DNA from: Halogranum gelatinilyticum
GTDB taxonomy: Archaea > Halobacteriota > Halobacteria > Halobacteriales > Haloferacaceae
DNA: 64,000 nt
NCBI RefSeq assembly: GCF_900103715.1
Contig: NZ_FNHL01000001.1
Span: forward strand, 62,001 to 126,000
Direction of reading: 5' to 3'
Shown here in pieces: positions 29,596 to 58,484 of the stretch. Made by a program: the position numbers and the translations under genes. Below the pieces are notes generated by a model, which was not told the DNA's origin, searched no databases, and saw only the letters and a program-made list of their open reading frames with translations. Within the stretch, counting starts at the first letter, position 1. Every line of letters begins with the position of its first letter.

Positions 29596-29745
29596 GTTTC
29601 GGTTTCGGACAACCCCCTCGTTTCGACTGGAAACCGGAAGACATCATCGAGGTATGGCTGCAAGAGAAGGCCGAAACTGGCGTCGTGGGGAAGCTAACAG
29701 AGCGAACGCGACAGTGGTCTCGACGCTCGGTGACGACGTTAGGGG
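29596..29745. other. Intergenic 150 bases holding an ORB-like motif
   Basis: Between the convergent cgi121 and tupC genes. The only notable sequence is the origin-box-like word at 29611-29634. No gene was found. Confidence 0.6.
29611..29634 (-). promoter_or_regulatory. ORB-like motif
   Basis: On the minus strand the core reads TTCCAGTCGAAACGAGGGGG, close to the haloarchaeal origin recognition box seen at 42.25 and 42.45 kb, including the G-run. It is 12.6 kb from the core origin, in a noncoding gap. Confidence 0.5.
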
Positions 29746-30510
29746 TCAGTAGACCAGTTCGCCCGAGATGAACTTCCGCGTGCGTTCGTCTGTGGGATTG
29801 TCGAATATCCGCTCGGTGCTTCCGATCTCCGTGAAGCCGTCGCCCAAGAGTACGCCGACGCGGTCGGCGATACGTTCGGCCTGGTGCATATCGTGGGTCG
29901 CGACGACGACTCCGATACCGCGGTCGCGCGCTTCGAGCACCGCGTCCTCGATGAGTCCCGTGTTCCGCGGGTCGAGGTCGGAGGTCGGCTCGTCGAGCAG
30001 GAGATACGTCGGGTCGCACGCGAGGGCGCGGGCGAAGGAGACCCGCTGTGCTTCGCCGCCGGACAGCGAGTGTGCCTCCTGGTCGAGTTTGTCCGTCATG
30101 TCGACGACGTCCAGTGCCTCCGAGACGGCGTCGTGCGTGCCGTTCGACCCGAGGACCGACCGCAGTTGGTCCTGCAGACGCTCACGCCACGGCTGGCGTA
30201 CCCGCAGACCGTACTCGACGTTCCGCGCGACCGTCGCGTCGAACAGGCTCGCCTCCTGAAACACCATGCTGACGCGACGCCGAAGTGCGAGTCGGTCGCT
30301 CTCGTCGAGCGTCCACACCGCCTGCCCGTCGATGTCGACAGTCCCCGCAGTCGGCCGAGTGAACAGTGCCAGGATGCGAAGCAGCGTCGTCTTGCCGACA
30401 CCCGACGGGCCGATGATGCCGAGGACTTCGCCGGGGTCGACCGACAGCGACACGTCGGCGAGGACGTTTTCGTCGCCGTAGCTGTGCGAGACGTCCGAGA
30501 GCCGGATCAT
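29746..30510 (-). CDS. tupC: Tungstate-type ABC transporter ATP-binding protein
   Basis: A 254-residue ATPase of the oxyanion importer encoded in the tupA-tupB-tupC operon. Walker A is [13 protein letters not shown] near residue 38, the signature is [15 protein letters not shown], and Walker B is [13 protein letters not shown]. Its start overlaps the tupB stop by four bases. Given the binding protein, tungstate is the likely substrate, with molybdate as the alternative. Confidence 0.88.
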
Positions 30511-31223
30511 CGGTTCACCCCCTCCGTGTCGCCGAGGCGGACGACGACCGTGTTGACGGTCAGGACGAGCAGGACCAACACGCCACCGAGAATCATCGCC
30601 GTCTCGTACCGGCCCTGTCGGGCTTCGAGCTGGATAGCGGTGGTCAGCGTCCGGGTCTTCGAGATGCCGTCCGCGCTCGTGATGTTGCCACCGACGATGA
30701 GGACGGAGCCGACCTCACTGATGGCGCGGCCGAAGCCCGCCAAGACGGCCGTCGCGATGCCGTACCGCGCCTCCTTGATGACGACAAGTGCGACGTCGAG
30801 TCGCGTACCGCCGAGGACGCGGGCGGCGTCGCGGACGTTGTCGCCCACGCCGGTGATGGCCGCGAGGCTGATGGCCGTGATAGGCGGCGTCGCGAGGACG
30901 AACTGTGACATGATCATCGCCTCCTTGGTAAAGATCAGCTCCAGCGCGCCGAGCGGTCCCTGGTTCGAGACGGCGAAGAGCACGAGCAGGCCGACGACGA
31001 CGCTCGGAAAGCCCATCCCCGTGTTGATGACGGACTTCACGAGTTGCTTGCCGGGGAAGTCGGTGAAGCCCAGGACGATGGCCGTCGGGACGCTGAACAG
31101 CGTACTCAGCGTCACCGAGATGACGCTGACGTACAACGAGACGTAGATGATACTCGCGACGTAGCCGTCCCTGAACGGGAGGTCGACGAGTTGCAGAAGC
31201 GGTCCGACCGGTTCGAGTGGCAC
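30507..31223 (-). CDS. tupB: Tungstate-type ABC transporter permease
   Basis: A 238-residue inner membrane permease with about six helices. The ATPase-contact loop is seen in [21 protein letters not shown] near residue 135, and the [17 protein letters not shown] segment is typical of TupB/WtpB-type permeases. Only two bases separate it from the tupA stop. It pairs with TupC, probably as a homodimer. Confidence 0.9.
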
Positions 31224-31225
31224 GG

Positions 31226-32164
31226 CTACTCGTCGTCGGAGTCGCTACTCCAACCTTCCGGGACGTACTGCTGGAAGTCCGGATTCTCGGAGACCGCCTC
31301 GGGGAAGAACAGCTGTTCGCCGTTGACCTGATACTCCGAGATGGCGGTCTGGACGTCCGGGCTGGTGATCCAGCCGATGTACGCCATCGCGAGGTCGTAG
31401 TTGGCGTTGTCGTGGACGCCGGGGTTGACCGCCATCACGCCGTAGGGGTTCGCGAGGATCTCGGGACCGCCCTCGATGGGTCCCTGCACGAGGATGGTGA
31501 GGTCGATCTCCGACCGCTGGGAGATGTACGTCCCGCGGTCCGAGAGCGTGTAGGCACCCTGCTGGTTCGCGATGTTCAGGGCCTCGCCCATCCCGGTTCC
31601 GGTCTCCTGGTACCAGTCGCCACCGGGGTCGGTGCCTGCGGCCTCCCAGAGGTTCAGTTCCTTCGTGTGCGTTCCGGAGTTGTCGCCGCGGGAGACGAAC
31701 GTCGCCTCCGCCTCGGCGATGGTGGTGAGCGCTTCGGTCGCCGAGTCCATCCCCTCGATGCCCGCCGGGTCGCTCTCGGGACCGACGATGACGAAGTCGT
31801 TGAACATCAGGTCCCGGCGGTTGATACCGTAACCGTTCCGCATGAACTCGTCTTCGAGGCCGCGGGCATGGACCATCACCACGTCCGCGTCACCGTTGCG
31901 GGCGGATTCCAGGGCCGCGCCTGTCCCCTGTGCCACGGCGTCGACGGTGACCCCGTACATCTCCTCGAAGCCGGTGTGAATCTCGTCGAGCAGGCCGGTG
32001 TCGTACGTACTCGTCGTCGTCGTGAGCGTCAGGGTCTCACCCGCCACACCGGGCCGACCCGCCTGTGACCCCGCGTTGGCACTGGGTGCCCCCGTACAGC
32101 CGGCGATACTCGCGATACCACCGAGGCCGAGGGCCTTCATGAAATCCCGCCGTTGTATCGACAT
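31226..32164 (-). CDS. tupA: Tungstate-binding lipoprotein
   Basis: The 312-residue binding protein of the importer. The Tat signal RRDFMK is at residues 5-10 and a lipobox places Cys23 as the lipid anchor, so it is exported folded and tethered outside. The mature start carries the family signature [17 protein letters not shown], and later [12 protein letters not shown]. These are typical of TupA-like tungstate binders. A loosely TATA-like T-run lies 27 bases before the ATG. The operon is tupA-tupB-tupC. Confidence 0.9.
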
Positions 32165-32443
32165 AGGAACATCGACGGACGAGGAGCAAAAAGATGTTTC
32201 GCTCCGCCTGGGTGGGCAGTCGTCACGTCAAGAGGGCGACGACACGGCTCGGAGTCCACCGAGTCGGGTCAAAAGTACGGAAGGCATGGTGCTCAGGTAT
32301 ACGGAGGAAGACGATATGCGTAATCGTCGTGAGAACGTTCGTCGTGACCGTCGAGCGTCGAGACTGTCGGCCGATATGTGGGTAGAACAGGCGTCGGCAG
32401 ACGCTCCGGAGACGGCTCTCGGGATGAGGATTCGAGAGAAGTA

Positions 32444-32516
32444 TAGTTCCACCAGGATTCGAACCTGGGTCGTTGCCCCCAGAAGGCAACAGGATTGGCC
32501 ACTACCCCATGGAACT
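32444..32516 (-). tRNA. tRNA-Gln (anticodon CUG)
   Basis: Read on the minus strand, a 73-base cloverleaf with acceptor arms AGTTCCA and TGGAACT, discriminator A, anticodon stem TTGCC/GGCAA with loop TTCTGGG (anticodon CTG), and T arm CAGG-TTCGAAT-CCTG. CCA is not encoded. No intron is present. A TATA-like CTTAAG lies about 35 bases upstream. Confidence 0.95.
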
Positions 32517-32649
32517 TCGTTCGCATCCACAGATACCGCTCGGTTGTTCTTAAGCATTGCGTGATAGCTGGACTGTGTGATTTGCTGGCAAGCGAGCTAT
32601 ACGTGCATAAACCACCACGCTTTTGCCCTCAAATTGTACAGTTTCGTGT

Positions 32650-33225
32650 ATGTACGTCGGACGGTTCATCGTCATCGGTCCCGAGGTCGGCGCGTACCGC
32701 GTCTCCTCGCGTTCGTTCCCCAACCGCCAAGTCGTCGACCGCGACGGCACGCTCACCGTCGCGCCGACGGCCGACGCCCCGGAGACGGACAACCCCTACA
32801 TCTCGTACAACTGCGTCCGCGAAGTCGACGGCAAAGCCGTCGTCGGCAACGGCTCGCAGGTCGACCCCATTACTGAAAAGTTGGGCCTCGGCTACCCCGC
32901 CCGCGACGCCCTCGCCGAGACGCTGCTCGCGCTCGACTACGAGAAGGACGACTACGACACGCCGCGTATCGCCGGCGTCGTCGGTGCCGACGACGCCTTC
33001 ATCGGCATCGTCCGCGAAGACGCGCTGCTCGTGAAAGAGGTCGACGAGCCGACGCTCGTAGCGACCTACGAGGAGGACAGTCCCCGCGCGTTCGACTTCG
33101 AGGCCGAGACCGCCGCGGCGGCCGCCAGCGAGGCCTACGGCCAGGAGTTCGAGCACGCCGTCTGCGCCGCCGGCGTTCGGGTCACGGACGACGGCGTCGA
33201 GACCGCCATCGACAACGGCGAGTAA
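32650..33225 (+). CDS. purO: IMP cyclohydrolase, archaeal type
   Basis: PurO, 191 residues, which closes the ring to give IMP in the last step of purine synthesis in archaea that lack the PurH cyclohydrolase domain. The start [14 protein letters not shown] and the segments [11 protein letters not shown] and [12 protein letters not shown] match the family. The ATG at 32650 is preferred over a start nine codons upstream, which has no family similarity. Confidence 0.9.
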
Positions 33226-33276
33226 CACACCCCCAGAACTTCTAACACGGTTCCCGGCGAACGACGAGCCACAGCT

Positions 33277-33936
33277 ATGCGCCTCGGCGTGCTCTCGGAC
33301 GTTCACGCGAACCGTATCGCGCTCGACGCCGTCCTCGACGATATGCCGCCCGTCGACGGACTGGTCTGCGCTGGCGACGTCGTCGGCTACAACCCGTGGC
33401 CGGTGGAGTGCGTCGCCGCCGTTCGCGAGCGCGAGATACCGACCGTCCAGGGCAACCACGACCGGGCCGTTTCGACTGGAACCGCGTTCCGGTTCAACGG
33501 GATGGCCCGCGCTGGCGTCGACTACGCCCGCGAACAGCTCGACGACGAGAGCCTCGATTGGCTCGGGTCGCTACCAGAAGAACGGACCCTCGCCGACGGC
33601 CGGGTGAAGGTCGTCCACGGCCATCCGGACGACCCGGACCGCTACACGATGCCTCACGACTTCTCGCCGCGACTCCTCGACGACGAGGACGTGCTCGTCA
33701 TGGGCCACACCCACGTCCAGCACCACGAGCGGTACGGCGAGGGTATCGTCCTGAATCCGGGGAGCGTCGGCCAGCCGCGCGACGGCGACCCGCAGGCGGC
33801 CTACGCCGTCGTGGACCTCGACGCGATGGACGTCGAGGAGCGGCGCGTCGAGTACGACGTCGAGAGCGTCGTCGACGCCGTCGAGGCGGCGGGGCTACCG
33901 AGCCGAATCGGAACGCGACTGCGGAAGGGAGAGTGA
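33277..33936 (+). CDS. Metallophosphoesterase
   Basis: A 219-residue phosphodiesterase of the YfcE/MJ0936 type. The metal-binding motifs are all visible: SDVHANRIAL (residues 7-16), CAGDVVGYNPWP, QGNHDRA, VHGHP, and MGHTHVQHHE. Such enzymes hydrolyse phosphodiesters or nucleotides in vitro, with unknown natural substrates. It follows purO by about 50 bases and could be in one transcript. Confidence 0.9.
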   Translation: MRLGVLSDVHANRIALDAVLDDMPPVDGLVCAGDVVGYNPWPVECVAAVREREIPTVQGNHDRAVSTGTAFRFNGMARAGVDYAREQLDDESLDWLGSLPEERTLADGRVKVVHGHPDDPDRYTMPHDFSPRLLDDEDVLVMGHTHVQHHERYGEGIVLNPGSVGQPRDGDPQAAYAVVDLDAMDVEERRVEYDVESVVDAVEAAGLPSRIGTRLRKGE

Positions 33937-33990
33937 CACCGCTGGTCGGAACGAAAAGCGGAGAAACGTATCGAGGACGAGGCGCGCGCC

Positions 33991-35169
33991 TCAGAACTCG
34001 TCTTGGACGATTTTGAGTGTCTCTTCGCGGTCGTCCCAGGCGACGAACAGCGCGACCGACGTCGCGCTCGTGATGACGTCGTGGAGGTTGATGCCCGCCT
34101 CGGCGAGCGGCGTGACGATGTTCTGGAGGACGCCCGGCCGGTTCGGGAGTTCGCCGCCCGTCACGCGGACGACGGCGATGTCGTCTTCGACCGTCACCGA
34201 GGAGAGCAGCTCGTCGTTGACGACCTCGTCGTGCAGCACGGTCTCGGCCTCTTCGGCGTGGTCTTCGGCGACGTAGAAGGTGATGGAGTCCATGCCGCTG
34301 GCGACGGCCTCGACGTTGATCTCGGAGCCGCGGAGTGCCTTCGAGAGGTCCGCGAGGATTCCCGGTCGGTTCCGGATGGCTCGTCCCGCGACGGTGAGAC
34401 AGGCGAGTCGGTGCTCCTGCATATCGATGAGGTTGGTGAACTTCCCCTCGATGCGGGTGCCGCCGGAGAGCAGGTCGCCGTGCTGGTAGTGGACGACACG
34501 GACGTCGAGCGCGTCGTCCTTGTACGACAGCGCGGAGGGAGCGACGACCTCCGCGCCGCGGAACGAGAGGTTCCGGAGTTCGTCGACGGTGATGCGGCCG
34601 ACGTTGCGCGCGCCCTCGACGACGTGGGGGTCGCCGGTCATGACGCCCTCGACGTCGGTCACGATGACGACCTCGTCGGCGTTCATGTACTTGCCGAGCA
34701 TGACGGCGGTCGTGTCGGAGCCGCCGCGGCCGAGCGTCGTCACGTCGCCGTCGAGACTCTGCGCGAGGAAGCCGGTGATGACCGGGACGACGCCGTCGAG
34801 GTCCTCAGCCAGTTTGGCCGCTCGCTTCGAGGTCTCCTCGACGTCGACCTCGCCAACCGCGTTCGTGATGACCGGCCAGAGGTCGCTGCCGGGTTCGAGA
34901 AAGAGCGCGTTGACGCCGCGGGAGGTGAGGGCGGCCTTGAGCATCCGGACGGAGGTCCGTTCGCCCATGCTGACGATCTCCGCGCGGTCGGCGTCCGACG
35001 TATCGAACTTGATCTCGTCGAGCAGGTCGTCGGTCGTGCTGCCCATCGCGCTCGCGACGACCGCGATCTCGTGGCCCTGTTCGACGGCCGCCGCGATGGA
35101 GTCGGCGGCGCGGTTGATTCGGTCGCCGCTCCCGAGGGAGGTCCCCCCGAACTTGGCGACTACGCGCAT
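33991..35169 (-). CDS. lysC: Aspartate kinase
   Basis: A 392-residue aspartokinase that starts the pathway to Lys, Met, Thr and Ile. The phosphate-binding N-terminus is VVAKFGGTSLGSG (residues 3-15), with LGRGGSDTTAVMLG in the kinase domain. Two ACT domains follow near residues 265-325 and 335-385 (for example LPNRPGVLQNIVTPLAEAGIN), the usual site of feedback control. The ATG has a good ribosome site (GGAGGA, 5-6 bases away) on the minus strand. It supplies homoserine for the metX/metY cluster 24 kb away. Confidence 0.95.
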   Translation of the reverse strand: MRVVAKFGGTSLGSGDRINRAADSIAAAVEQGHEIAVVASAMGSTTDDLLDEIKFDTSDADRAEIVSMGERTSVRMLKAALTSRGVNALFLEPGSDLWPVITNAVGEVDVEETSKRAAKLAEDLDGVVPVITGFLAQSLDGDVTTLGRGGSDTTAVMLGKYMNADEVVIVTDVEGVMTGDPHVVEGARNVGRITVDELRNLSFRGAEVVAPSALSYKDDALDVRVVHYQHGDLLSGGTRIEGKFTNLIDMQEHRLACLTVAGRAIRNRPGILADLSKALRGSEINVEAVASGMDSITFYVAEDHAEEAETVLHDEVVNDELLSSVTVEDDIAVVRVTGGELPNRPGVLQNIVTPLAEAGINLHDVITSATSVALFVAWDDREETLKIVQDEF

Positions 35170-35321
35170 ACTGCTTCCTCCGATTCGACCGAGACTGCGA
35201 ACTGGTGCGTAAACATGCGACAGCGTAGCGTGGGGAGCCGCATAACTGTGTCCACTTTCCCAACGGTTGCCGATTGGACACGTCATCGCGGTTCGGCCGA
35301 CGAGAACCGGACAGCCGTGGA

Positions 35322-35328
35322 CTTTTAC
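35322..35328 (+). promoter_or_regulatory. TATA box of the GNAT-like gene
   Basis: CTTTTAC is centred 28 bases before the ATG at 35353, consistent with a near-leaderless mRNA. Confidence 0.45.
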
Positions 35329-35352
35329 CCGCAGTCGGCGACTGAATACGGT

Positions 35353-35799
35353 ATGGACGTTCGGGACGCAGTCGAAGCCGACGCCAGCGCGCTCGCCACA
35401 CTGGGAGACGCCCCCCAAGAGTCACTGCGGAACGCGATTCACGACCGGACGGTCCGCGTCGCCGAGGAGCCGTCGGCGGGGACCGACGGCGAAGGCAGCG
35501 AGGACGGTGAGGACGAGGAGAGCACGACGATTACAGGATTCGTCGGGTTCGACGCCCGTGACGGGACGGTCTACGTCACACAGTTCGGTGGCTCGCGCGC
35601 GGCCTGTGAGCTGCTCCTCGAGGAGCCGGTTCGCTTCGCCGAGCACGAGGGGATGGACGTCGAGGTCGTCGTCACTGCGACGGACGAGACGATGCGGGCT
35701 GCAGTGGAAGCGGTGGGGTTCGAGAAGAAGGGCAGCGGACCGATGTTCGACGGCGAGCGGACGGTCCGCTACCGGCTGAAGCCGGAGCCGGGGAGTTAG
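35353..35799 (+). CDS. GNAT-like acetyltransferase
   Basis: A 148-residue protein with a shortened N-acetyltransferase fold. The start MDVRDAVEADASALATLGD resembles the first strand and helix of GNAT enzymes, and the end (MRAAVEAVGFEKKGSGPMFDGERTVRYRL) resembles the last strands. The acetyl-CoA P-loop (Q/RxxGxG/A) is not clear: the segment GGSRAACELLLEE stands in its place. An acidic insert of about 20 residues interrupts the middle. It may be a degenerate or unusual family member. Confidence 0.6.
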   Translation: MDVRDAVEADASALATLGDAPQESLRNAIHDRTVRVAEEPSAGTDGEGSEDGEDEESTTITGFVGFDARDGTVYVTQFGGSRAACELLLEEPVRFAEHEGMDVEVVVTATDETMRAAVEAVGFEKKGSGPMFDGERTVRYRLKPEPGS

Positions 35800-37283: not shown

Positions 37284-39038
37284 TCAGGAGAATTTCCGAA
37301 CCGTCATCTCCAGCGTGTCGAGGTCAAGAATGGGCGCGTAGCCCGCGTCGGGGTCGATGTTGACGGACTTCTGGAAGTCGGTCTGTGCCTGCCAACAGCC
37401 GGAATTGACGGCGAGGACGTTGTGGTACTTCCCCCAGCCGAGTTTGTGAACGTGGCCGGTGTGGAAGACGTCCGGTACGTCCTCGATGACGAGATAGTCC
37501 TTCTCTTCGGGTGCAACGCGGGTGTGGCCGCCGTACTGCGGGGCGACGTGACGCTTCTTGAGGAGTTGGTACATCGCCTTGTGCGGCTCGTCGTAGCTGG
37601 CCTTATCGGCCGGGAGTTCCGCGATGACCTCGTCGAGCGAGACGCCGTGGTACATGAGTACGGAGACGTTCTCGACGGTCACGGTCGAGGGGTTGCTCGT
37701 GATCTTCGCGTCGTGGGCGGACATGATCTCCCGAAGCTCCTCGTCGAAGCCGGGTTGGGGTTCCGCGAGGCGGACGGCGTCGTGGTTGCCCGGAATCATC
37801 ACGATCTCCATGTCGCCGGGCACCTGTTTGAGATACTCCGCGAACCGCTCGTACTGGTCGTAGATGTCGATGATGTCGAGTTCTTCGTCCTGGTTCGGAT
37901 AGATGCCGACGCCCTCGACCATGTCGCCAGCGATGAGGAGATACTCGACCGGGTCGGCCTCGGGAGTGTGCAGCCAGTCGGTAAAGCGGTTCCAGGCGTC
38001 GGCCATGAACTCCTGGCTGCCGACGTGGACGTCCGAGATGAGAGCCGCCTGCACGTGACGGTCGGCGGTGCTGGGGCGGTGCGTCCGCGGGATGTCGGGG
38101 AAGTGGATGCTGTCGGCGAAGAGGATGCCCGCGTCGTCGGCGAGCGTCCCCTGGATCGCGATACACTCGTCTTTGAGCATCTGGTCGACGAGTTCGGCGA
38201 TGTTCTTGTCCTTCATCACCAGACAGGGGAAGGTCCCGGTCGTGTCCTCCAGTTCGACGAGCCAGTGGCCCGACGCCGTCGACCGGATGTCGTTGACGAG
38301 ACCGATCATCTCCGCGTCGCTCCCGCCGGGCATCTGCTGGATTGCCTTGGCAGGACGGTGGTTGACACGGCCGCGAAGGAGTTTCGAGAGCCGCTCGTAG
38401 CGGTCTTTGAACGTCGTCACGAACTGCTTGTACTCGCCGGTTCCGGTGCTCGCACCGGTCATGTCGTTCGTGATGTGGGCTGGCGTCGGATTACGAGTGT
38501 GGCTGGACTGCGACGCCTCCGACGACAGCGTCGTATCCGTCGATACCGGCGGAGACGAGTCGCCGTCGCTGGAAGTGCTCGATGGGACGGCCTTCCCGGT
38601 ATCCCCGATATCAGTCGAGGGAACGGTCTCTCCGGTATCGGTTGATGAGACGGTATCCTCGACATCGGCCGACGCCGACCCCTCCGTTTCGACTGGAGCG
38701 GACTGTGACGGTCGATTCGGTTTCGGTTCGGCCGTTTGGTCGGTCTCTCCAGTCGAAACAGGGGGGTCTTGGGTCACCGACTCACGAGGAGGAGCGTCGG
38801 CCGACTCGTCGGAGGGTGGCTTCGTCGGGGCATCCGCAGAGAGTTTGTCGGTGTCGAGGACCGCCCGGACGTGGGCGACGGTGATGCGGAGGGCGTCGTC
38901 GGGGGCGTCTTCGACCGCCCGGTCGAGTGCGAGTGCCGGGTCGGCGGCGTTCGCGAGCAGCGTGATGGCCTCTCGCTCGGCGTTGTAGCCGCGGCGAGCG
39001 AGTTCCGTGACCAGACCCGACGGCGTCGAAAGCGGCAC
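37284..39038 (-). CDS. polD1: DNA polymerase D small subunit (DP1)
   Basis: The 584-residue small subunit of the archaeal replicative polymerase PolD. Residues 1-60 form the helical N-domain. Residues 65-200 are a disordered linker rich in Ser, Thr, Asp and Pro. The OB fold begins near 215 (HWLVELEDTTGTFPCL), and the calcineurin-like phosphodiesterase domain covers about 325-570, with SDVHVGSQEF, AGDMVEGVGIYPNQ, PGNHDAVR and TGHVHKLG intact. That would allow 3'-5' exonuclease activity. The start is GTG. Two ORB-like motifs lie inside the linker. It sits in the conserved origin cluster with sec11 and orc1. Confidence 0.95.
   Translation of the reverse strand: MPLSTPSGLVTELARRGYNAEREAITLLANAADPALALDRAVEDAPDDALRITVAHVRAVLDTDKLSADAPTKPPSDESADAPPRESVTQDPPVSTGETDQTAEPKPNRPSQSAPVETEGSASADVEDTVSSTDTGETVPSTDIGDTGKAVPSSTSSDGDSSPPVSTDTTLSSEASQSSHTRNPTPAHITNDMTGASTGTGEYKQFVTTFKDRYERLSKLLRGRVNHRPAKAIQQMPGGSDAEMIGLVNDIRSTASGHWLVELEDTTGTFPCLVMKDKNIAELVDQMLKDECIAIQGTLADDAGILFADSIHFPDIPRTHRPSTADRHVQAALISDVHVGSQEFMADAWNRFTDWLHTPEADPVEYLLIAGDMVEGVGIYPNQDEELDIIDIYDQYERFAEYLKQVPGDMEIVMIPGNHDAVRLAEPQPGFDEELREIMSAHDAKITSNPSTVTVENVSVLMYHGVSLDEVIAELPADKASYDEPHKAMYQLLKKRHVAPQYGGHTRVAPEEKDYLVIEDVPDVFHTGHVHKLGWGKYHNVLAVNSGCWQAQTDFQKSVNIDPDAGYAPILDLDTLEMTVRKFS
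38678..38699 (-). promoter_or_regulatory. ORB-like motif inside polD1
   Basis: On the minus strand: CTCCAGTCGAAACGGAGGGG, one arm of an inverted pair with the motif at 38745. It codes for APVETEGS in the linker. Confidence 0.4.
38745..38768 (+). promoter_or_regulatory. ORB-like motif inside polD1, opposite orientation
   Basis: CTCCAGTCGAAACAGGGGGG on the plus strand, with the G-run pointing away from the partner at 38678. In the polD1 frame it encodes PPVSTGE. Confidence 0.45.
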
Positions 39039-39973: not shown

Positions 39974-40234
39974 ACGGTCGTACCGCTCAGGTGACGGAGT
40001 CTGGTGAACGGCGGCAACCCCCTCTCTTTCGAGTGGAACTCACTCACAAACAGTAGCCAACTTCGCTTGTGAGACGGTGTCGTTTCGAGTGGAAACAGTG
40101 GCGTTGTGGCGGCATTGCGGCAGGACAGTCAAAAGTTCGGTGAGTGGAGAGGGACGGAACAGAGTTCAGTGAGCGGTGGACGGAACAGTGACTTCCGACG
40201 AGCACCCGATGACGGTGACCGCACCGATAGCCGC
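39974..40234. other. Intergenic 260 bases with two ORB-like motifs
   Basis: Between the convergent sec11 and orc1 genes. One motif with a C-run at 40016-40040 and one without (about 40079-40095), both in the same orientation. No gene was found. Confidence 0.6.
40016..40040 (-). promoter_or_regulatory. ORB-like motif downstream of orc1
   Basis: Minus strand: TTCCACTCGAAAGAGAGGGGG. The core TCCACTCGAAA and the G-run are as in the origin boxes; a single substitution sits between them. Confidence 0.5.
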
Positions 40235-41968
40235 TCAGTTGTCGAACCGCGCCTGCACGAACGGCTGGGCGTCCTCGATGTTGCCGAGTCGGGAGTCCGA
40301 GAGGAGGACGGCCTCGGTCTCGTCGATGGGGACCGAGAGGCTGATCTCCTTGGTACGGCCGTACCGACCCTTGCTGACGACGACGGCGTTGACGATGCCG
40401 AGCATGTCGAGTTCGCTGATGAGGTCGGTGACGCGTCGCTGGGTGAGGATGTCGGCGTCGATCTCCTCGCAGAGCCGTTTGTAGATGTTGAACACCTCGC
40501 CGGTGTTGATGTTGTGGACGCCGTTCTTCTCGAGGAGGATGATAGAGAAGAGGACGATCTTGCTCTGGGTCGGGAGCGTCCGGACCACCTCGACGACGCG
40601 GTCGAGTTCGATCTTGTCCTGGGCCTGTCGGACGTGGGTCTCCTCGACGGTGTCGGCCTGACTGCGCTCGGCGAGTTCGCCCGCGGTTCTGAGCAGGTCG
40701 AGCGCGCGCCGGGCGTCCCCGTGTTCCTGTGCGGCGAACGCGGCACACAGTGGGATGACGTCCTCGGTGAGCGCGTCGGTCTTGAACGCGATGTCCGCGC
40801 GGTGTTGGAGGATATCTCGGAGCTGGTTGGCGTCGTACGGCGGGAAGACGATCTCCTCTTCGCCGAGACTCGACTTCACGCGCGGGTCGAGGAAGTCGGT
40901 GAACTTCAGGTCGTTCGAGATGCCCATGATGGAGATGCGCGAGTTGTCGAGTTCGGAGTTCATCCGCGAGAGGTTGTAGAGCGTGTCGTCGCCGGACTTC
41001 TCGACGAGTTTGTCGATCTCGTCGAGCATGATGACGACCACGCGCTCGTTGTAGTCGACGGCCTCGAAGAAGGTGGAGTAGACGCGGTCGGTCGGCCACC
41101 CGGTCATCGGGACGGTCTCCATGTCGCTGCGGTCCCGTTCCAGTTCGGAGATGCGGTCGTCGACGGCGTCGAGGTCGGCGAAATCCGTGTCGTCGAGGCG
41201 GCCGGGATCGTCGCGTGCGGCCGACCGCAGGCTCCGAAGCGAGTCGAGTTCGTCGTCGATGACCTGGTGGTTCTTCTCGATGAACTTGTTCGCGAGTTGG
41301 GCGAGCACGCGGTACTGCGTGTCGGTCACCTCGCAGTTGATGTACTCGACCTCACACGGGACGTCGTACTTCTGGGACGTCGATTCGAGTTCCTGACTGA
41401 CGAACTTCGCACTCGCCGTCTTGCCGGTCCCCGTCTTCCCGTAGATGAGGATGTTCGACGGCGTCTCCCCCCGGAGTGCCGAGACGAGGATGGTCGCCAT
41501 CTGGTTGATCTGGTCCGTTCTGTGCGGGAGTTCGTGTGGCGTGTACGACGGTCGGAGGACCTCTTTGTTCTCGAAGATCGGCTCGCCGGAGAGCAGATCG
41601 TCGAAGAGTCCCTTGCTGTCGCCGGCAGTGTCGTCGAGAACGACTTCGTCGAGGTCGACGGTCGACGGCGTGTCCGTCGGTGATGCGTCCGCCACCGACG
41701 AACCCGTCAGGTCCGTCGCTGGCGTGTCTGTCGAATCAGTCGCCGGCGTCTCTGGTGGATCAGTCGCCGACACGTCTACTGAATCCGTCGCCGACAGGTC
41801 TACCGAGTCCATCGGTGTCGTGTCGTCGTCAGCTTCCTGAACCGAGTCGAGTCGGTCCGTCGACTCGCTCGCCTCGTCGTCCGTGGTCTGTTGGTCCGTC
41901 GGCTCAGCCGGCTCGTCCGGTTCGGCCGCCTCGTCGTCCGCGTCGATGTGTGTGTCTTCTCTGTTCAT
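40235..41968 (-). CDS. orc1: Orc1/Cdc6 replication initiator
   Basis: A 577-residue initiator that binds origin boxes and loads the MCM helicase. Residues 1-115 are a disordered acidic extension with repeats of the type (S/P)ATDS. The AAA+ domain has Walker A GKTGTGKTAS (Lys183), Walker B VVIMLDEIDKL and the sensor ISIMGISNDLKF. A winged-helix DNA-binding domain fills the last 110 residues. The ATG chosen (MNREDTHIDADD) lies just beside an origin box. The family carries initiator-specific residues for the adjacent origin, so this Orc1 probably governs the origin beside it. Confidence 0.96.
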   Translation of the reverse strand: MNREDTHIDADDEAAEPDEPAEPTDQQTTDDEASESTDRLDSVQEADDDTTPMDSVDLSATDSVDVSATDPPETPATDSTDTPATDLTGSSVADASPTDTPSTVDLDEVVLDDTAGDSKGLFDDLLSGEPIFENKEVLRPSYTPHELPHRTDQINQMATILVSALRGETPSNILIYGKTGTGKTASAKFVSQELESTSQKYDVPCEVEYINCEVTDTQYRVLAQLANKFIEKNHQVIDDELDSLRSLRSAARDDPGRLDDTDFADLDAVDDRISELERDRSDMETVPMTGWPTDRVYSTFFEAVDYNERVVVIMLDEIDKLVEKSGDDTLYNLSRMNSELDNSRISIMGISNDLKFTDFLDPRVKSSLGEEEIVFPPYDANQLRDILQHRADIAFKTDALTEDVIPLCAAFAAQEHGDARRALDLLRTAGELAERSQADTVEETHVRQAQDKIELDRVVEVVRTLPTQSKIVLFSIILLEKNGVHNINTGEVFNIYKRLCEEIDADILTQRRVTDLISELDMLGIVNAVVVSKGRYGRTKEISLSVPIDETEAVLLSDSRLGNIEDAQPFVQARFDN

Positions 41969-42243: not shown

Positions 42244-42272
42244 GCCCCCCACCCCTTCGTTTCGGGTGGAGA
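42244..42272 (-). promoter_or_regulatory. Origin recognition box with extended G-run (left)
   Basis: Minus strand: CTCCACCCGAAACGAAGGGG, followed by TGGGGGG. It is the inverted partner of the box at 42449. Confidence 0.8.
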
Positions 42273-42448: not shown

Positions 42449-42479
42449 GTTCCACCCGAAACGAGGGGGTGGGGGGTGG
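42449..42479 (+). promoter_or_regulatory. Origin recognition box with extended G-run (right)
   Basis: Plus strand: TTCCACCCGAAACGAGGGGG followed by TGGGGGGTGG, the best match in the window. With the left box it frames the AT-rich block. Confidence 0.85.
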
Positions 42480-42847: not shown

Positions 42848-43489
42848 ATGGGACTGCTCACAGAACTTAGAGACAGTATTACACGGGTCACCGAAGGACT
42901 GTTCTCGGCCAGCGAACCGAAGCGGATCGGTATCTATGGGCCGCCGAACGCCGGAAAGACGACCCTCGCAAACCGTATCGCCCGCGACTGGACCGGTGAC
43001 GCCGTCGGCCCGGAGAGTCACATTCCACACGAAACGCGCCGTGCTCGCCGGAAGGAGAACGTCACTATCGAACGCAACGGCCGTTCGGTCACCATCGACG
43101 TCGTCGACACCCCCGGTGTGACGACCAAGGTCGACTACAACGAGTTCCTCGACCACGACATGGAGAAAGACGACGCCATCCGGCGCTCGCGCGAGGCCAC
43201 CGAAGGCGTCGCCGAGGCCATGCACTGGCTCCGCGAGGACGTCGACGGCGTCATCTACGTGCTCGACTCCTCGACCGACCCGTTCACGCAGGTGAACACG
43301 ATGCTCATCGGCATCATCGAGAGCCAGGACCTGCCCGTCTTGATCCTCGCCAACAAGGTCGACCTGGAGGATTCGAACATCCAGCGTATCGCCAACGCCT
43401 TCCCGCAGCACGAGACGATTCCGCTCTCGGCACTCGAGGGCGACAACATGGACGAGGTCTACGACAAGATCGCGGAGTACTTCGGGTGA
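42848..43489 (+). CDS. oapA: Origin-associated Era-like GTPase
   Basis: A 213-residue GTP-binding protein. G1 is GPPNAGKTT (residues 31-39), G3 DTPG and G4 NKVD. In other haloarchaea this gene sits at oriC1 and is named oapA (origin-associated protein). The role is not firmly established. A GGAGG site lies seven bases before the ATG, and a TATA-like TTTAAGTA lies about 77 bases upstream, giving a leader of roughly 50 bases. First gene of the oapA-oapB-oapC operon. Confidence 0.9.
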   Translation: MGLLTELRDSITRVTEGLFSASEPKRIGIYGPPNAGKTTLANRIARDWTGDAVGPESHIPHETRRARRKENVTIERNGRSVTIDVVDTPGVTTKVDYNEFLDHDMEKDDAIRRSREATEGVAEAMHWLREDVDGVIYVLDSSTDPFTQVNTMLIGIIESQDLPVLILANKVDLEDSNIQRIANAFPQHETIPLSALEGDNMDEVYDKIAEYFG

Positions 43490-48585: not shown

Positions 48586-49755
48586 CTAGCCGAGCCAGTG
48601 GACCGCGTCCGCGTCGAAGCCGACTTGGACGTCGGCCCCCTCGACATCGGTTACCTCGCTGTCGGCTGCCTCAACACCGACCACTTCGCTGTCGGCCGCC
48701 TCAACACCAGCCACCTCGCTGTCGGCCGCCTCGACATCGCCTGCTGCTACGCCGCCGGTCGTCCGGAGCAGCACCGACCGACCGTCCCAGTCGAGATGAA
48801 CCCGTGTCGCCTCGCCGAGGAACTCCGTGCGCTCGACGGTCGCCGTGAAGCGGTTCTCCCCGCTGCCGACCCGCAGCTGCTCGGGTCGGACGCAGAAGGT
48901 GACGGCGTCGCCAACGGCGGGTGGCTCCGCGGGGTCGACGCCGAGTCTAACCGTCTCGCCGCCGACGTTGACACGGACGGCCGACCCCTCTGTTTCGTCT
49001 GGAGAAACTGATAACTCGGTCACTGTTCCTTCGAAGACGTTGTTGTCGCCGACGAACTCGGCGACGAACCGGGTCTCCGGCCGGTGATAGACGTCCCGCG
49101 GCGTGCCGACCTGTTCGACCCGTCCGTCGTGCATGACGGCGACACGGTCGGAGACGGCGAGTGCCTCCTCCTGGTCGTGGGTGACGTAGAGCGTCGTGAT
49201 TCCCAACTCCGACTGGATCTCCTTGACCTGCAGCCGCAGCCGCTCGCGCAACTGGGCGTCGAGCGCGCTCATCGGTTCGTCGAGAAGCAGGAGCCGCGGA
49301 CCCGGTGCGAGCGCGCGGGCGAGTGCGACCCGTTGCTGTTGGCCGCCCGAGAGCTGCCCCGGCTCGCGGTCGCCCATGCCGTCGAGGTCGACGAGGTCCA
49401 AGAGATGTTCGACGCGCTCGGCCTTCGACTCGTCGCCCGGCGGGTCTGAGAACCGCAGGCCGTAGCCGACGTTTTCGGCGACGCTCATGTGCGGGAACAG
49501 CGCGTAGTTCTGGAAGACGACGCCGACCCCCCGCGCTTCGGGTGGAACTCCCGAGACGTCCTCGTCGTCGAAGCGGACGCGTCCCTCGGTGGGCGACTCG
49601 AAGCCAGCGACGAGTCGGAGTGTCGTCGTCTTGCCGCAGCCGGAGGGACCGACGAGCGTGAAGAACTCGCCGTCGGCGACGTCGAGGTCGACGTCGCGCA
49701 GCGCGGTCGTCTCGCCGTAGCGTTTCGACACCGCATCGAGGTGAATCTCGGACAT
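48586..49755 (-). CDS. thiQ: Thiamine-type ABC transporter ATP-binding protein
   Basis: A 389-residue ATPase of the PotA-like group, last gene of the thiB-thiP-thiQ operon. Walker A is VGPSGCGKTTTLRL near residue 38, the signature LSGGQQQRVALARAL, Walker B LLLLDEPMSALD. A C-terminal TOBE domain follows (about residues 240-330). The last 55 residues contain four copies of a ten-residue repeat of type VEAADSEV(A/V/T)(G/D), which is not a family feature. Two ORB-like motifs lie in the coding sequence. The thiamine assignment comes from the binding protein; iron or another cation is the alternative. Confidence 0.82.
   Translation of the reverse strand: MSEIHLDAVSKRYGETTALRDVDLDVADGEFFTLVGPSGCGKTTTLRLVAGFESPTEGRVRFDDEDVSGVPPEARGVGVVFQNYALFPHMSVAENVGYGLRFSDPPGDESKAERVEHLLDLVDLDGMGDREPGQLSGGQQQRVALARALAPGPRLLLLDEPMSALDAQLRERLRLQVKEIQSELGITTLYVTHDQEEALAVSDRVAVMHDGRVEQVGTPRDVYHRPETRFVAEFVGDNNVFEGTVTELSVSPDETEGSAVRVNVGGETVRLGVDPAEPPAVGDAVTFCVRPEQLRVGSGENRFTATVERTEFLGEATRVHLDWDGRSVLLRTTGGVAAGDVEAADSEVAGVEAADSEVVGVEAADSEVTDVEGADVQVGFDADAVHWLG
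48631..48740 (-). repeat. 30-base coding repeat in thiQ
   Basis: Three and two-thirds units of exactly 30 bases, encoding VEAADSEVAG-type peptides at the C-terminus. Neighbouring units are almost identical. Confidence 0.85.
48984..49008 (-). promoter_or_regulatory. ORB-like motif inside thiQ (1)
   Basis: Minus strand: TCCAGACGAAACAGAGGGG, one base off the core. In frame it encodes SPDETEGS. Confidence 0.35.
49526..49552 (-). promoter_or_regulatory. ORB-like motif inside thiQ (2)
   Basis: Minus strand: TTCCACCCGAAGCGCGGGGG, two bases different from the right origin box. Confidence 0.35.
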
Positions 49756-52721: not shown

Positions 52722-52728
52722 ATACTTA
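52722..52728 (-). promoter_or_regulatory. TATA box of thiB operon
   Basis: Minus strand TAAGTAT centred 26 bases before the thiB ATG. Confidence 0.6.
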
Positions 52729-52852
52729 GGCGGCGTGGTTGGGAAGCGTGGTCGGACCGACCCGTCACGCGCCGCTTCGCTCCGACTGTTTCCGTCGAAC
52801 CGGACAGTCTGTCCGGGGGAACCGTTTTTGCCCCACGTCTCCACCAGGAGGT

Positions 52853-53926: not shown

Positions 53927-53927
53927 C

Positions 53928-54743
53928 TTACGCCTCGCGCTCGACCGGGCCGCCGCGCTCTTGCCACTCGGTCAGGCTGCCCTCGTAGAACGCGACGTGC
54001 TCGTAGCCGAGCTGTCGGAGGACGACGTAGGTGTGGCTGATACGGCGGGCCGTGTTGCAGTAGAGGACGACCTCCTTGTCGGGTGTGATTCCGCGGTCGG
54101 CGAGGATGGATTCGAGTTCCGCACGTGGCTTCAGTCCGCGCGAGTCGTCGTCGACGAGTTCGAGCCAGTCGAGTTGGACCGCGCCGGGGACGTGGCTCTC
54201 CGCGTACTCCTCCGGCTCGCGGGTGTCGACGATGACGACGTCGTCTCCGGCTCCGTCGCCTGCCGCGTCGGCGTCGGCGACGCGGTCGACGGCGTCCAAC
54301 ACGTACTCGTAGCCGACGAGCGGCGAGTGCTCGGGGTCGCGGACCGCGTACTCCGACTCGGGAAACTCCCGAGCCTCGCGTTCGACCTCGTGTTCGCGGC
54401 TCCAGGCACTGAAGTCGCCGTTCAGGAGATGGAGGTCGCGGTGGCCGTAGAGTTCGGCGGTGACGAGGAAGCGCGCGGCGAAGACCCCGTGGGTATCGTC
54501 GTAGGCGACGATGGTGTCGTCCTCGTCGATACCGGCCTCGTTCATCAGGTCGGTCCAGACAGCAGTCCCAGGAAGCATCCCCTCGTCGCCGACGTCGCTG
54601 CGGAAGGAGTCGAACGGGATACTGACCGCGCCGGGGACGTGGCCGATGCCGTCGAACTCCCAGGCGTCGCGGACGTCGACGACGCGGACGTCGTCGAGAT
54701 GGTCGGCCAGCCAGTCGGCCGACACGACGAGGTTCTCGTACAT
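53928..54743 (-). CDS. Rhodanese-type sulfurtransferase 1
   Basis: A 271-residue tandem rhodanese that moves a sulfane sulfur between donors and acceptors. The first domain (residues 1-125) is the structural, inactive one (VRVVDVRDAWEFDGIGHVPGA). The second (about 150-271) has the catalytic loop VVLYCNTARRISHT, where the Cys forms the persulfide. The loop CNTARR differs from CRIGER of the divergent partner, so donor preference may differ. Upstream in-frame sequence is chance extension; ATG at MYENLVVSAD is the family start. Confidence 0.9.
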   Translation of the reverse strand: MYENLVVSADWLADHLDDVRVVDVRDAWEFDGIGHVPGAVSIPFDSFRSDVGDEGMLPGTAVWTDLMNEAGIDEDDTIVAYDDTHGVFAARFLVTAELYGHRDLHLLNGDFSAWSREHEVEREAREFPESEYAVRDPEHSPLVGYEYVLDAVDRVADADAAGDGAGDDVVIVDTREPEEYAESHVPGAVQLDWLELVDDDSRGLKPRAELESILADRGITPDKEVVLYCNTARRISHTYVVLRQLGYEHVAFYEGSLTEWQERGGPVEREA

Positions 54744-54808
54744 ACTCCCGGCTACTCCACGGTCGGCCTTAGCGTTCGGGCTTTCGACACCACGAGCCAG
54801 CTGTCGGA

Positions 54809-54833
54809 GATAGCGGCAAAATTGTGCGCTATC
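54809..54833. promoter_or_regulatory. Inverted repeat between the divergent rhodaneses
   Basis: Perfect 7-base arms GATAGCG and CGCTATC around an 11-base AT-rich spacer, 66 bases upstream of sulfurtransferase 1 and 170 bases upstream of sulfurtransferase 2. It could be a regulator site. Confidence 0.4.
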
Positions 54834-54971
54834 GCTCGCGTCGCTGTGGTATCCGTTCGTGTCGTTTATCCCTGAACCGAGCCAGCGAGTCCCGAACGCT
54901 GCCGTCGACAACGATGCGGCAACATTGACCGGGAGTCGGCAGGTGAGGCGAACTATGCCCTGGCTAATGGG

Positions 54972-54978
54972 CTTATAC
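54972..54978 (+). promoter_or_regulatory. TATA box of sulfurtransferase 2
   Basis: CTTATAC centred 30 bases before the ATG at 55005. Confidence 0.55.
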
Positions 54979-55004
54979 GGCCTTGTGCTGTATGTGTGGC
55001 TGCA

Positions 55005-55859
55005 ATGTCTGATTACGCCAACGACGTCCTCGTCACCGCGGAGTGGGTCGAGGACCATCTCGACGAGTTCCAGAGCGACGACTCCGGCTACCGGCTGGTA
55101 GAAGTCGACGTGGACACCGAGGCCTACGAGGAGAGCCACGCGCCCGGTGCCATCGGCTTCAACTGGGAGACACAGCTGCAGGACCAGGACACCCGTGACA
55201 TCCTCTCGAAGGAGGACTTCGAGGATCTCCTCGGCTCTCACGGTATCAGTGACGACGACACCGTCGTCCTCTACGGCGACAACTCCAACTGGTTCGCCGC
55301 CTACACCTACTGGCAGTTCAAGTACTACGGCCACGACGAAGTCAAGCTGCTCGACGGCGGTCGCGACTACTGGCTCGACAACGACTATCCGACCACGGAC
55401 GAGGTCCCGGAGTTCTCGGCGACCGACTACACCGCACGCGGTCCGTTCGAGGACATCCGTGCCTACCGCGACGACGTCGAGAAGGCCATCGACCGCGGCA
55501 TTCCGCTGGTCGACGTCCGCTCGCCCGAGGAGTTCTCCGGCGAGATCCTCGCACCCCCGGGCCTGCAGGAGACCGCCCAGCGCGGCGGCCACGTCCCCGG
55601 CGCGAAGAACATCTCGTGGGCCGCAGTCACGAACGACGACGGGACGTTCAAGTCCTTCGACGAGCTGCAGGAACTCTACGCAGACGAAGGCATCACCGGC
55701 GACAACAGCGTCGTCGCCTACTGCCGCATCGGCGAGCGCTCGTCGGTCGCCTGGTTCGCGCTGCACGAACTGCTCGGCTACGACTCGGCCGTGAACTACG
55801 ACGGCTCGTGGACGGAGTGGGGCAACCTCGTCGGCGCGCCCATCGAGAAGGGCAACTAA
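55005..55859 (+). CDS. Rhodanese-type thiosulfate sulfurtransferase 2
   Basis: A 284-residue tandem rhodanese. The second domain carries the active loop VVAYCRIGERSSVAW, the CRxGxR(S/T) form typical of thiosulfate sulfurtransferase. The first domain has an Asp-rich variant (VVLYGDNSNWFAAY) where the Cys is replaced, so it is inactive. The two rhodaneses are divergent and share 260 bases of promoter region, probably for cyanide, thiosulfate or sulfur-carrier use. ATG chosen over an in-frame GTG three codons upstream. Confidence 0.92.
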   Translation: MSDYANDVLVTAEWVEDHLDEFQSDDSGYRLVEVDVDTEAYEESHAPGAIGFNWETQLQDQDTRDILSKEDFEDLLGSHGISDDDTVVLYGDNSNWFAAYTYWQFKYYGHDEVKLLDGGRDYWLDNDYPTTDEVPEFSATDYTARGPFEDIRAYRDDVEKAIDRGIPLVDVRSPEEFSGEILAPPGLQETAQRGGHVPGAKNISWAAVTNDDGTFKSFDELQELYADEGITGDNSVVAYCRIGERSSVAWFALHELLGYDSAVNYDGSWTEWGNLVGAPIEKGN

Positions 55860-55934
55860 CTCGTCGAGTCGCGGATTCTGTCTTTTTCTCTCACCCGCGA
55901 GCGACAGCTCCGGCCTCCCCGGAGCCATCCAACC

Positions 55935-57497
55935 TCAGCCGCCCAGCACGAACGCCGCGATGCGCGGCGTCAGAAAGGCCTCGATGAACGAGGCGACGAC
56001 GAACACGACGGCCAGTCCGACGAGCACCTCGAACGCCCGGCCGAGTTCGTCGCCCACGTCGGCCGCCGACAGCCGTCCGCGCAGGCCGTCGAAGCCGACA
56101 CGGCCGAGATGGAGTCCGAGTCCTCCAGCGACTGCCAATGCCGGCAACTCGATGACGCCGTGCGGAGCCACGAGCGCGAGGAACGCGAGTCGGTCGAACA
56201 GCCCCGCGAGCGCGCCGATGAGGACGCCGTTGAACACGACCGAGGCGACCGTCGGCACGCCCAGCGCGAGACCGCCGTAGCTGCCGCCCGCGGCGACGAG
56301 CCAGTTGTTGGCCGCGATGTTGAGGAACGGGCCGACTGCGATGGTCCCGAAGACCCCCGCGACATCACCCGGCGGGTCGAACGCGACACCGTAGGGTGCG
56401 GTCAGGAACCAGCCGACGGCGACGCTTCCGGCCAACAGCACGGCCGACAGCAGGTTCGCGGTCGGATGGCCGACGACGAACGCGCCGAGCGCGCGCCAGC
56501 CGCGACCGAGACCGACTCCGACGCGCTCGCGGACCGACGGCCGACTGTCGGCACCGGTAGCACCTGTGGGGTCTTCCCACTCTTCGCGCGCCGTCTCACC
56601 ATCCGTAGCTGCGTCTACGGCCGTGTCGCCACGCTCGCCAGCGTAGAGTGCCATCTGGAAGCCGCCGAGCACCGGGCCGACGACGAGCGGCGTTCCGGCG
56701 GCGACGAGCTGTGGCGTTCCGACGACGTTGGCCAGCCCCGCGGCCGTCGCGAACGCGAGTCCGACGCCGAGGCTGACGACGACGTAGCCGAGGAAGTCCA
56801 GCGGGTTGCGCCGGATGAATCCGAGACTCGCCCGGACGCTCCCGAGGACGCCCACGTCGTCGACGACGACGGCCGGGCCGACGAACGACAGCCCGAGCCA
56901 GACGACGAGGAGGAAGACGAAGGCGAGCCCACCGACGACGACGCCGACGAGGATGCCTGCAACGCCGCCGGCGGCGGCACCGAGACCCACGCCCAGCGCG
57001 AGCAGCCCGCCGCCGACGAGGAAGACGCCCGCACGCAGCAGCGTCAGACCGAGGAACGTTCGCCAACGGCTCATGCCGGCGACGCCCTCGGTCAGCGGTG
57101 CTCGCCCGTCGAAGGCGGCGTGGAGTGCCGAGAGGGTCGCTGCGGTCGTGACGCTCTGCAGCACCACGAAGAGCACCACGGAGGCGAGGACCCCCAAGCC
57201 GAGGATGGCGAAGACGGTCGGCGACGCCAGATTGGCGAGCGCGTCGGTCAACTCCGGCGGGAGCGATTGGGGGCTCGCCGGATCGAGCTGGTCGGGTTCG
57301 ATGCTGTCGGCGGCGCGGACGAGGGCTTCGAGTCTGCCGTCGACCCGGAGGAGACCGACGACGACGCCGAGTGCGGCGAGAAACGGGACCCGTCCCGCGA
57401 CGGCCGCGCCGGTCGTCAACAGGTAAAACGGGAGGACGTTCCATGCGTAGCGGACGGGGAGGGCGACCCCGAAGCGGAGGGCGGAGGCGAGTGTCAC
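55935..57497 (-). CDS. SpoIIM-type membrane protein with N-terminal membrane domain
   Basis: A 520-residue membrane protein, mostly helices. The C-terminal 200 residues match the SpoIIM (stage II sporulation protein M) family: PTANLLSAVLLAGSVAVGWF, NIAANNWLVAAGG, GLFDRLAFLALVAPHGVIELPA. The N-terminal half is a second, helix-rich domain of unknown type. In archaea such proteins have no sporulation role; membrane remodelling is only inferred. The start is GTG at VTLASALRFGV. Confidence 0.75.
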   Translation of the reverse strand: MTLASALRFGVALPVRYAWNVLPFYLLTTGAAVAGRVPFLAALGVVVGLLRVDGRLEALVRAADSIEPDQLDPASPQSLPPELTDALANLASPTVFAILGLGVLASVVLFVVLQSVTTAATLSALHAAFDGRAPLTEGVAGMSRWRTFLGLTLLRAGVFLVGGGLLALGVGLGAAAGGVAGILVGVVVGGLAFVFLLVVWLGLSFVGPAVVVDDVGVLGSVRASLGFIRRNPLDFLGYVVVSLGVGLAFATAAGLANVVGTPQLVAAGTPLVVGPVLGGFQMALYAGERGDTAVDAATDGETAREEWEDPTGATGADSRPSVRERVGVGLGRGWRALGAFVVGHPTANLLSAVLLAGSVAVGWFLTAPYGVAFDPPGDVAGVFGTIAVGPFLNIAANNWLVAAGGSYGGLALGVPTVASVVFNGVLIGALAGLFDRLAFLALVAPHGVIELPALAVAGGLGLHLGRVGFDGLRGRLSAADVGDELGRAFEVLVGLAVVFVVASFIEAFLTPRIAAFVLGG

Positions 57498-57607
57498 AGT
57501 TGTCTCCCTCTCGTGGCAGCCGCCTATCTCTTTCCCCCGGCTCCCAGCTCTCGGCGAATCCCACCCGTGCCGATGGCTACAAGCGACCGGCGGGAGTACG
57601 CCGGTGT

Positions 57608-58228
57608 ATGAACGCATCCGCCTTCGCCGAGACGCTTCGCGACGACCACGAGACCGCCCTCTCCCGACTCGGTTCCTCGAAAGCCCTCTACGCGCTCACC
57701 GGCGGCGAGATGGACGCCCCGAACGTCCGACGGGCCGCCCACGACGAGGCGACCACCGCCGCCCGCGTCTTCGCCGAGTGGGCCGACAGCGAGGACGACG
57801 CAGCCGCTGCCGACGTCTTCGCCGACGTCGCCGCCGACGCCGAGTCTCACCTCGATGCCATCGGTGCCGACGCCGGTGACCCGGACGCGACACGGCCGCT
57901 CTACGAGACGCTCGAGGGCTTCGACGACACGCACGCCCGCCTCGGCGGCCTCGTCGGCCGGACGCTCGCGACCAAGAAGACCGCAGAACAGCTCGTCGGC
58001 TTCTTCGTCGGCGACGCCGACCCCCAGTCGGCCTCGACGTTCCGCGGGCTGCGCGACGACTACGACGACCATCTGGACGCCGCGCTCGCCGCACTCGACG
58101 ACGCCTGCGAGACCGACGAGGAGTGGGACGCAGCCAAAGCCGCCGCTGACGCCACTATCGAGGCTGCCTACGGCCACTACGTCGAGACGTTGGAAAGCAT
58201 GGGCGTGAAGCCGAAGAACGTCTGCTGA
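57608..58228 (+). CDS. Conserved haloarchaeal protein, ferritin-like helical fold
   Basis: A 206-residue acidic, all-helical protein starting MNASAFAETLRDDHETAL. It has conserved-looking motifs (SRLGSSKALYALTGGEMD) and many Ala residues. The pattern of four long helices resembles rubrerythrin or ferritin-like bundles, but no clear diiron motif (ExxH pairs) is visible. Some haloarchaeal genomes name this family a transcription antitermination protein; I cannot confirm that. The composite 3' element starts at its stop codon. Confidence 0.7.
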   Translation: MNASAFAETLRDDHETALSRLGSSKALYALTGGEMDAPNVRRAAHDEATTAARVFAEWADSEDDAAAADVFADVAADAESHLDAIGADAGDPDATRPLYETLEGFDDTHARLGGLVGRTLATKKTAEQLVGFFVGDADPQSASTFRGLRDDYDDHLDAALAALDDACETDEEWDAAKAAADATIEAAYGHYVETLESMGVKPKNVC

Positions 58229-58440
58229 ACGACCTTTTTCTACGTCGGGTCGCCTTCGGCGACCGCTCCTTGAAAAAGCTCGGCCAAAAAAGCCGCAAAG
58301 CTCGGCCTGACGGCCTCGTTTGCGGTACAACACGGGATCCGACTTCCGCATCCGCACCGCGACCGCACCGGCTTCCGCACCGCGACCGCAACGCACGACG
58401 ACGCACGGCTCACTCCGCACCGCCACCGCGACACGGCTAC
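58229..58440 (+). repeat. Composite 3' element (copy 2)
   Basis: Directly after the stop codon: ACGACCTTTTTC, hairpin, GAAAAAGCTCGGCCAAAAAA, TGCGGTACAACAC, then repeats of CCGCACCGCGACCGCA type. The order of parts is the same as after polD1 on the other strand. Confidence 0.75.
58234..58278 (+). terminator. Hairpin terminator after the 57.6 kb gene
   Basis: GGTCGCC-TTC-GGCGACC hairpin, enclosed by CTTTTTC and GAAAAAG, which could extend the stem. The T-run precedes the hairpin and an A-run follows it. Confidence 0.5.
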
Positions 58441-58460
58441 TCACAATTCAGTGAATGAAT

Positions 58461-58484
58461 AGTTCCACTCGAAACAGGGGGGTT
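58461..58484 (+). promoter_or_regulatory. ORB-like motif at 58.5 kb
   Basis: Plus strand: GTTCCACTCGAAACAGGGGG followed by GTT. It matches the origin boxes near orc1 closely (core TTCCACTCGAAACAGGGGG identical in type), but 16 kb away. Confidence 0.55.

Follow-up and report, generated by a model that had tools for sequence, protein, structure and literature searches.

An array of oriC1-type boxes, centred on the origin and thinning out over about 200–300 kb, is a trait common to haloarchaea. In Halogranum gelatinilyticum, the window (the whole 64,000-nt stretch analysed, C1:62001-126000 of a 3.77-Mb genome in 11 contigs) carries the core pair of boxes beside orc1 together with further boxes inside, behind and ahead of neighbouring genes. 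The identity of the motif, and the match of the adjacent Orc1 to the solved archaeal Cdc6-1 homologues 2qby and 2v1u, suggest that these are origin recognition boxes (ORBs) of the oriC1 type and that Orc1 would bind them. The features of the window are:

29612-29633, minus strand: box behind the hel308-CGI121 operon, 16 bp from its stop codon (35.5 bits)
35698-35719, plus strand: weak intergenic box (15.1 bits)
37284-39038, minus strand: polD small-subunit (DP1) gene, its GTG start at 39038 deduced from the conserved N-terminus
38678-38699, minus strand: box in the polD small-subunit gene, on the sense strand, encoding the linker APVETEG (34.8 bits)
38746-38767, plus strand: second polD small-subunit box, partner of the first on the opposite strand, encoding DPPVSTG (32.5 bits)
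40018-40039, minus strand: intergenic box at the orc1 3′ end, between convergent genes (26.2 bits)
40083-40104, plus strand: degenerate palindromic box GTTTCGAGTGGAAAC, without G-run (13.2 bits)
40235-41968, minus strand: orc1, encoding an oriC1-type Orc1/Cdc6 with AAA+, lid and Cdc6_C winged helix
41972-41993, minus strand: orc1-start box, spanning -4 to -25 relative to the orc1 ATG (31.8 bits)
42251-42272, minus strand: core oriC1 box 1, G-run pointing outward, with extended G-string (36.6 bits)
42449-42470, plus strand: core oriC1 box 2, the inverted partner about 200 bp off across an AT-rich stretch (33.2 bits)
42848-43489, plus strand: oapA-type GTPase gene at the origin, followed by oapB and oapC
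48984-49005, minus strand: box in an ABC-transporter ATPase gene, encoding SPDETEGS in a variable linker (33.2 bits)
49527-49548, minus strand: second box of that ABC ATPase gene, weaker and doubtful (17.4 bits)
58462-58483, plus strand: box 432 bp upstream of uvrB (32.5 bits)

The original prediction had listed, by eye, seven such motifs outside the core, some of them within genes. Pattern matching in the window recovers all seven at the positions given, those within genes being the boxes of the polD small subunit and of the ABC ATPase, and the G-run, which had been claimed for several, is present in seven out of seven; the strong box 41972(-) had been overlooked. Distal sites included, the boxes conform to the ORB consensus YTCCAnnnGAAAC followed by a G-run. 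At up to two mismatches, TTCCASTCGAAAC gives 16 matches in the window versus 2.7 ± 1.7 in shuffles. The exact 20-mer YTCCASNCGAAACRRRGGGG occurs eight times in the genome, every time within 29 kb around oriC1, and when one mismatch is allowed 9 of the 11 genome-wide matches fall in C1:91613-120482 (window 29.6–58.5 kb), which amounts to around 310 per Mb in this 29-kb stretch versus around 0.5 per Mb elsewhere. A uniform density, the outcome that the prediction had named as its refutation, is thus not seen genome-wide, and the enrichment at the origin stands. Weaker boxes with one or two mismatches also occur in this genome, at C1 50134, 57274 and 59582 to the left of the window and at 183827 and 255847, reaching 152 kb from the origin; the one at 255847 (30.7 bits) sits in a convergent gap. 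No proper G-run accompanies the doubtful matches at 33461 (11.4 bits) and 40074/40083 (8.3/13.2 bits).

The core pair adjoins orc1 and is inverted around the AT-rich element, an arrangement that the distal boxes do not have. The genome encodes many further Orc/Cdc6 homologues; only this orc1 is close to the oriC1-type initiator. A box comparable to that at the orc1 start is found beside orc1 in many relatives, and boxes in the region of the orc1 3′ end are present in several relatives too.

A sample of 40 haloarchaeal genomes from 37 genera and 11 families, searched at up to one mismatch, contains 284 sites, against one match for the reversed control pattern, with two to thirteen near-exact sites per genome. 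A 22-bp position weight matrix at 10 bits or more finds 299 sites and none in reversed sequence (1459 kb); because the matrix was trained on the scanned regions, partly picked for holding sites, it is the contrast with the control that counts here and not the density. Columns outside the search pattern are also conserved at sites more than 30 kb away from the origin, with T in 76% of them at -1, in 71% at +20 and in 68% at +21, versus a background of about 18%. In the aligned sites no conservation was seen beyond the box borders, so the sites are not part of a longer repeat. Core and distal boxes differ at their 3′ ends, which carry the extended G-string GGGGTGGG in the former and GGGGTT in the latter.

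The distance profile was taken from the 17 complete chromosomes of the sample, to which the far distances are limited by the draft contigs of the others. Counted from the core origin, there are 565 sites per Mb at 0–2.5 kb, 141 at 2.5–5 kb, 18 at 5–10 kb, about 21 at 10–30 kb, 3.8 at 30–100 kb, 3.5 at 100–200 kb (half of these sites being supplied by a single genome, G037, in which orc1 and polD sit 156–161 kb from the core pair), 0.88 at 200–300 kb, 0.29 at 300–600 kb and 0.03 beyond 600 kb. Around orc1, to a distance of about 10 kb, the same boxes are present in Haloferax, Haloarcula, Halorubrum, Natrinema, Halococcus, Haladaptatus and others. Two perfect boxes are outliers, one 737 kb from oriC1 (G024:C1:1987993) and the other at 414 kb (G007:C11:479115). 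In two genomes the locus itself is split, orc1 and polD being separated from the core pair and oapA by about 156–161 kb in G037 (C1 1724894-1730005 vs 1885604-1885959) and by about 9 kb in G015 (C2 start vs 3004203), and boxes have remained with each separated part. Methanosarcinales loci have core boxes for the most part. On two Methanosarcinaceae loci (L105 and L129) a box of 21 bits lies at +4171 and +6362 from the orc1 match, and the array may extend outside haloarchaea there.

Some of the boxes are written into protein-coding sequence. The polD small-subunit gene bears boxes in 35 of 38 genomes, in the linker between conserved domains, and its two boxes are 68 bp apart here, start to start, and mostly 56 bp (inverted) in relatives. 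The pair at 38.68/38.75 kb was considered as promoter boxes and this was ruled out, as the gene start at 39038 makes the pair intragenic. The sense box typically encodes [SAT]PVET[KE]GS. When polD linkers were chosen by the peptide P-x-E-T-x-G/A, and not by their DNA, the proline codon was CCA in 27 of 31 (10% in gene usage), the glutamate codon GAA in 25 of 31 (34%) and the glycine codon GGG in 23 of 24 (25%), with p values from 1e-7 to 1e-23 and with exceptions coming mainly from an unrelated N-terminal VPLETPAR. The ABC ATPase carries its linker box in the same frame as polD, reading SPDETEGS, SPHETKGV, SPVETEGS or APVETEGC, and several orthologues without the box are also without the peptide. 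Coding boxes that keep to one frame and use non-preferred codons show selection on the DNA, and it is because of the box that two unrelated proteins have this linker peptide in common. The peptide xPVET(K/E)GS (38678-38767, 48984-49005) thus has the look of a protein motif and is really a DNA one. The polD boxes persist where polD lies 56 kb away (G019) and where it lies 156 kb away, beside orc1 (G037).

Other boxes recur at fixed places beside genes. The position behind the hel308-CGI121 operon (26588-29595, plus strand) is conserved in 20 of 37 genomes, 6–76 bp beyond the CGI121 stop codon, and two loci, L306 (G013) and L301 (G023), have two successive boxes there. The box ahead of uvrB (58894-61047, plus strand) is also found in G001, G002, G004, G007, G008, G017 and G023. 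Both appear to be lost with distance: the hel308-CGI121 box is present in 18 of the 26 genomes whose operon lies no more than 70 kb from the origin versus 2 of 10 beyond (p=0.011; inside family f1, 15/17 near versus 2/6 far, p=0.021), and the uvrB box in 9 of 24 genomes, one of the nine being weak and at a different position, versus 0 of 13 beyond 81 kb (one-sided p=0.011), figures which are suggestive of loss once either gene is far from the origin and which come from post hoc cut-offs in few rearranged, related and phylogenetically non-independent genomes. More generally, 81 of the 111 strong distal boxes (at least 20 bits; 73%) are non-coding by heuristic ORF calls, as against about 20% of the sequence. 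Among the boxes in 47 tandem gaps, 19 are no more than 60 bp from the upstream gene's stop codon (about 9 expected), and one is that near to the start of the next gene. This placement near 3′ ends and away from starts makes promoter control unlikely for the distal boxes. A terminator or 3′-UTR element was ruled out, the boxes being confined to the origin region, on both strands, and also present in the core. The G-run points outward from the origin in 64 of the 111, which is a weak bias.

What might such an array do? The leading proposal, for which we see an evenly balanced case, is that it titrates or concentrates the initiator, with autorepression at the orc1-start box. Boxes close to oriC1 would be duplicated soon after firing, so that the sink for Orc1 would double, free Orc1 would fall and re-initiation would be delayed. 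The box at -4 to -25, a candidate autorepression site, would cover the promoter of a presumably leaderless orc1 transcript, and Orc1 could in this way repress its own synthesis. In archaea, the whole would be a dispersed equivalent of DnaA-box titration combined with autoregulation. The enrichment of extra boxes toward the origin that a titration system predicts is what we find in the 17 chromosomes; local concentration and chromosome organisation each predict such a gradient as well. Unless Orc1 is scarce, two to thirteen near-exact sites per genome would be a small sink. Several boxes also stand at fixed places relative to genes, beyond the need of a pure sink. Haloarchaea, moreover, are often polyploid, which counts against titration by few boxes. 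Precedents for titration exist: in Haloarcula hispanica, oriC2 is repressed by a region rich in ORBs that lies downstream of oriC2-cdc6E, a repression attributed to titration (PMC3936714), and in Escherichia coli DnaA boxes accumulate toward oriC in a manner favourable for titration (PMC12371093).

The main rival of titration, possible though rather unlikely in our estimate, is organisation or segregation of an origin domain, in which Orc1 on dispersed boxes would gather the origin region in the manner of ParB/parS, as a centromere-like mark. The gradient over about 200 kb, the single dispersed boxes and their intergenic placement at 3′ ends all suit it, as do the loss of boxes where the host gene sits far off and the 63 of 111 strong distal sites that adjoin genes outside the recurrent set, which indicates little gene specificity. 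The same data fit titration, however, and we know of no spreading or bridging activity of Orc1. In Har. hispanica, oriC1 is dispensable whereas cdc6A is nearly essential, and the study concerned deduces that Cdc6A does something vital away from oriC1 (PMC3936714), which would fit a role of this kind. Both titrating the initiator and marking an origin domain, then, fit the data.

That Orc1 acts through these boxes as a transcriptional regulator of orc1, the polD small subunit, the hel308 operon and uvrB appears to us clearly unlikely. The box at the orc1 start and the recurrent link to polD, hel308-CGI121 and uvrB speak for it, and in Sulfolobus Orc1-2 regulates the damage response, albeit from another motif (PMC9738581). 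However, the polD boxes lie about 270–340 bp inside the gene, the hel308 box lies past the operon stop codon, the uvrB box lies 320–790 bp upstream, only 1 of the 47 tandem-gap boxes comes within 60 bp of a start, and the hel308 and uvrB boxes are mostly absent when these genes are far from the origin. Transcription control is reasonable for the orc1-start box only. Less probable again is a local reservoir, in which nearby boxes would raise the Orc1 concentration at oriC1 and favour firing instead of limiting it; that density peaks in the first 10 kb and that polD has a conserved close pair agree with it, but isolated boxes 100–300 kb away are not readily explained and the oriC2 precedent is one of negative control.

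That the distal boxes serve as satellite origins, as the original prediction had also suggested, or as dormant ones is highly improbable. A core-type box is present at these sites and polD has an inverted pair, but the distal boxes, most of them single or tightly spaced, have no AT-rich unwinding element, and the polD pair is just about 34 bp apart within coding DNA. The lowest GC content within 300 bp is 0.52 at distal boxes, 0.57 at polD, 0.55 at random positions and 0.37 at the core, so that the distal boxes resemble random positions and not the core. Chance, repeats or coding by-products, to which we give next to no probability, are refuted, as far as the whole set is concerned, by the reversed controls (one match across 40 genomes, none in 1459 kb), by conservation that extends outside the search pattern and ends with the box, and by the codon test, even if the match at 49527, which overlaps a VPPEARG codon run in the ABC ATPase gene, may be such a by-product.

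Taken together, we think it somewhat probable that haloarchaea have a conserved origin domain of about 200–300 kb whose dispersed initiator boxes, some of them in-frame in protein linkers, would tie initiator dosage, and perhaps also origin positioning or segregation, to the copy number of the origin. To our knowledge, no such origin-centred ORB array has been described in archaea, and a search of the open-access literature found no description of dispersed ORBs around oriC1. The array touches on how archaea limit re-initiation and on whether their chromosomes bear an origin domain or a centromere-like mark; a conserved and countable set of boxes, some of which can be removed silently, makes both questions accessible to direct test in genera that are easy to work with, such as Haloferax and Haloarcula. 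The near-indispensability of Cdc6A in Har. hispanica despite a dispensable oriC1 (PMC3936714) may be related to the array as well.

How does the array compare with known systems? The ORBs of archaeal oriC1-type origins are like the boxes described here in core, polarity and G-run, and the core pair likewise flanks an AT-rich stretch beside orc1; most of our boxes, in contrast, lie 2–300 kb from the origin, have no AT-rich element and end in GGGGTT. Bacterial parS sites are also few, single and clustered around the origin, some of them within genes. However, parS is a palindrome bound by ParB, whereas the box here is predicted to be the origin's own initiator site. In oriC2D of Har. hispanica, for which titration of Cdc6E has been proposed, there are likewise extra ORBs near an origin that are not an origin themselves (PMC3936714), but these are packed into a single cluster immediately downstream of cdc6E, at oriC2, whereas the boxes here are single, dispersed, located at oriC1 and conserved across families. 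Finally, the DnaA-box gradient and datA of E. coli resemble the array in that initiator boxes become denser toward the origin (PMC12371093), although protein and box are different and hundreds of boxes occur chromosome-wide in E. coli, whereas here there are almost none beyond 300 kb.
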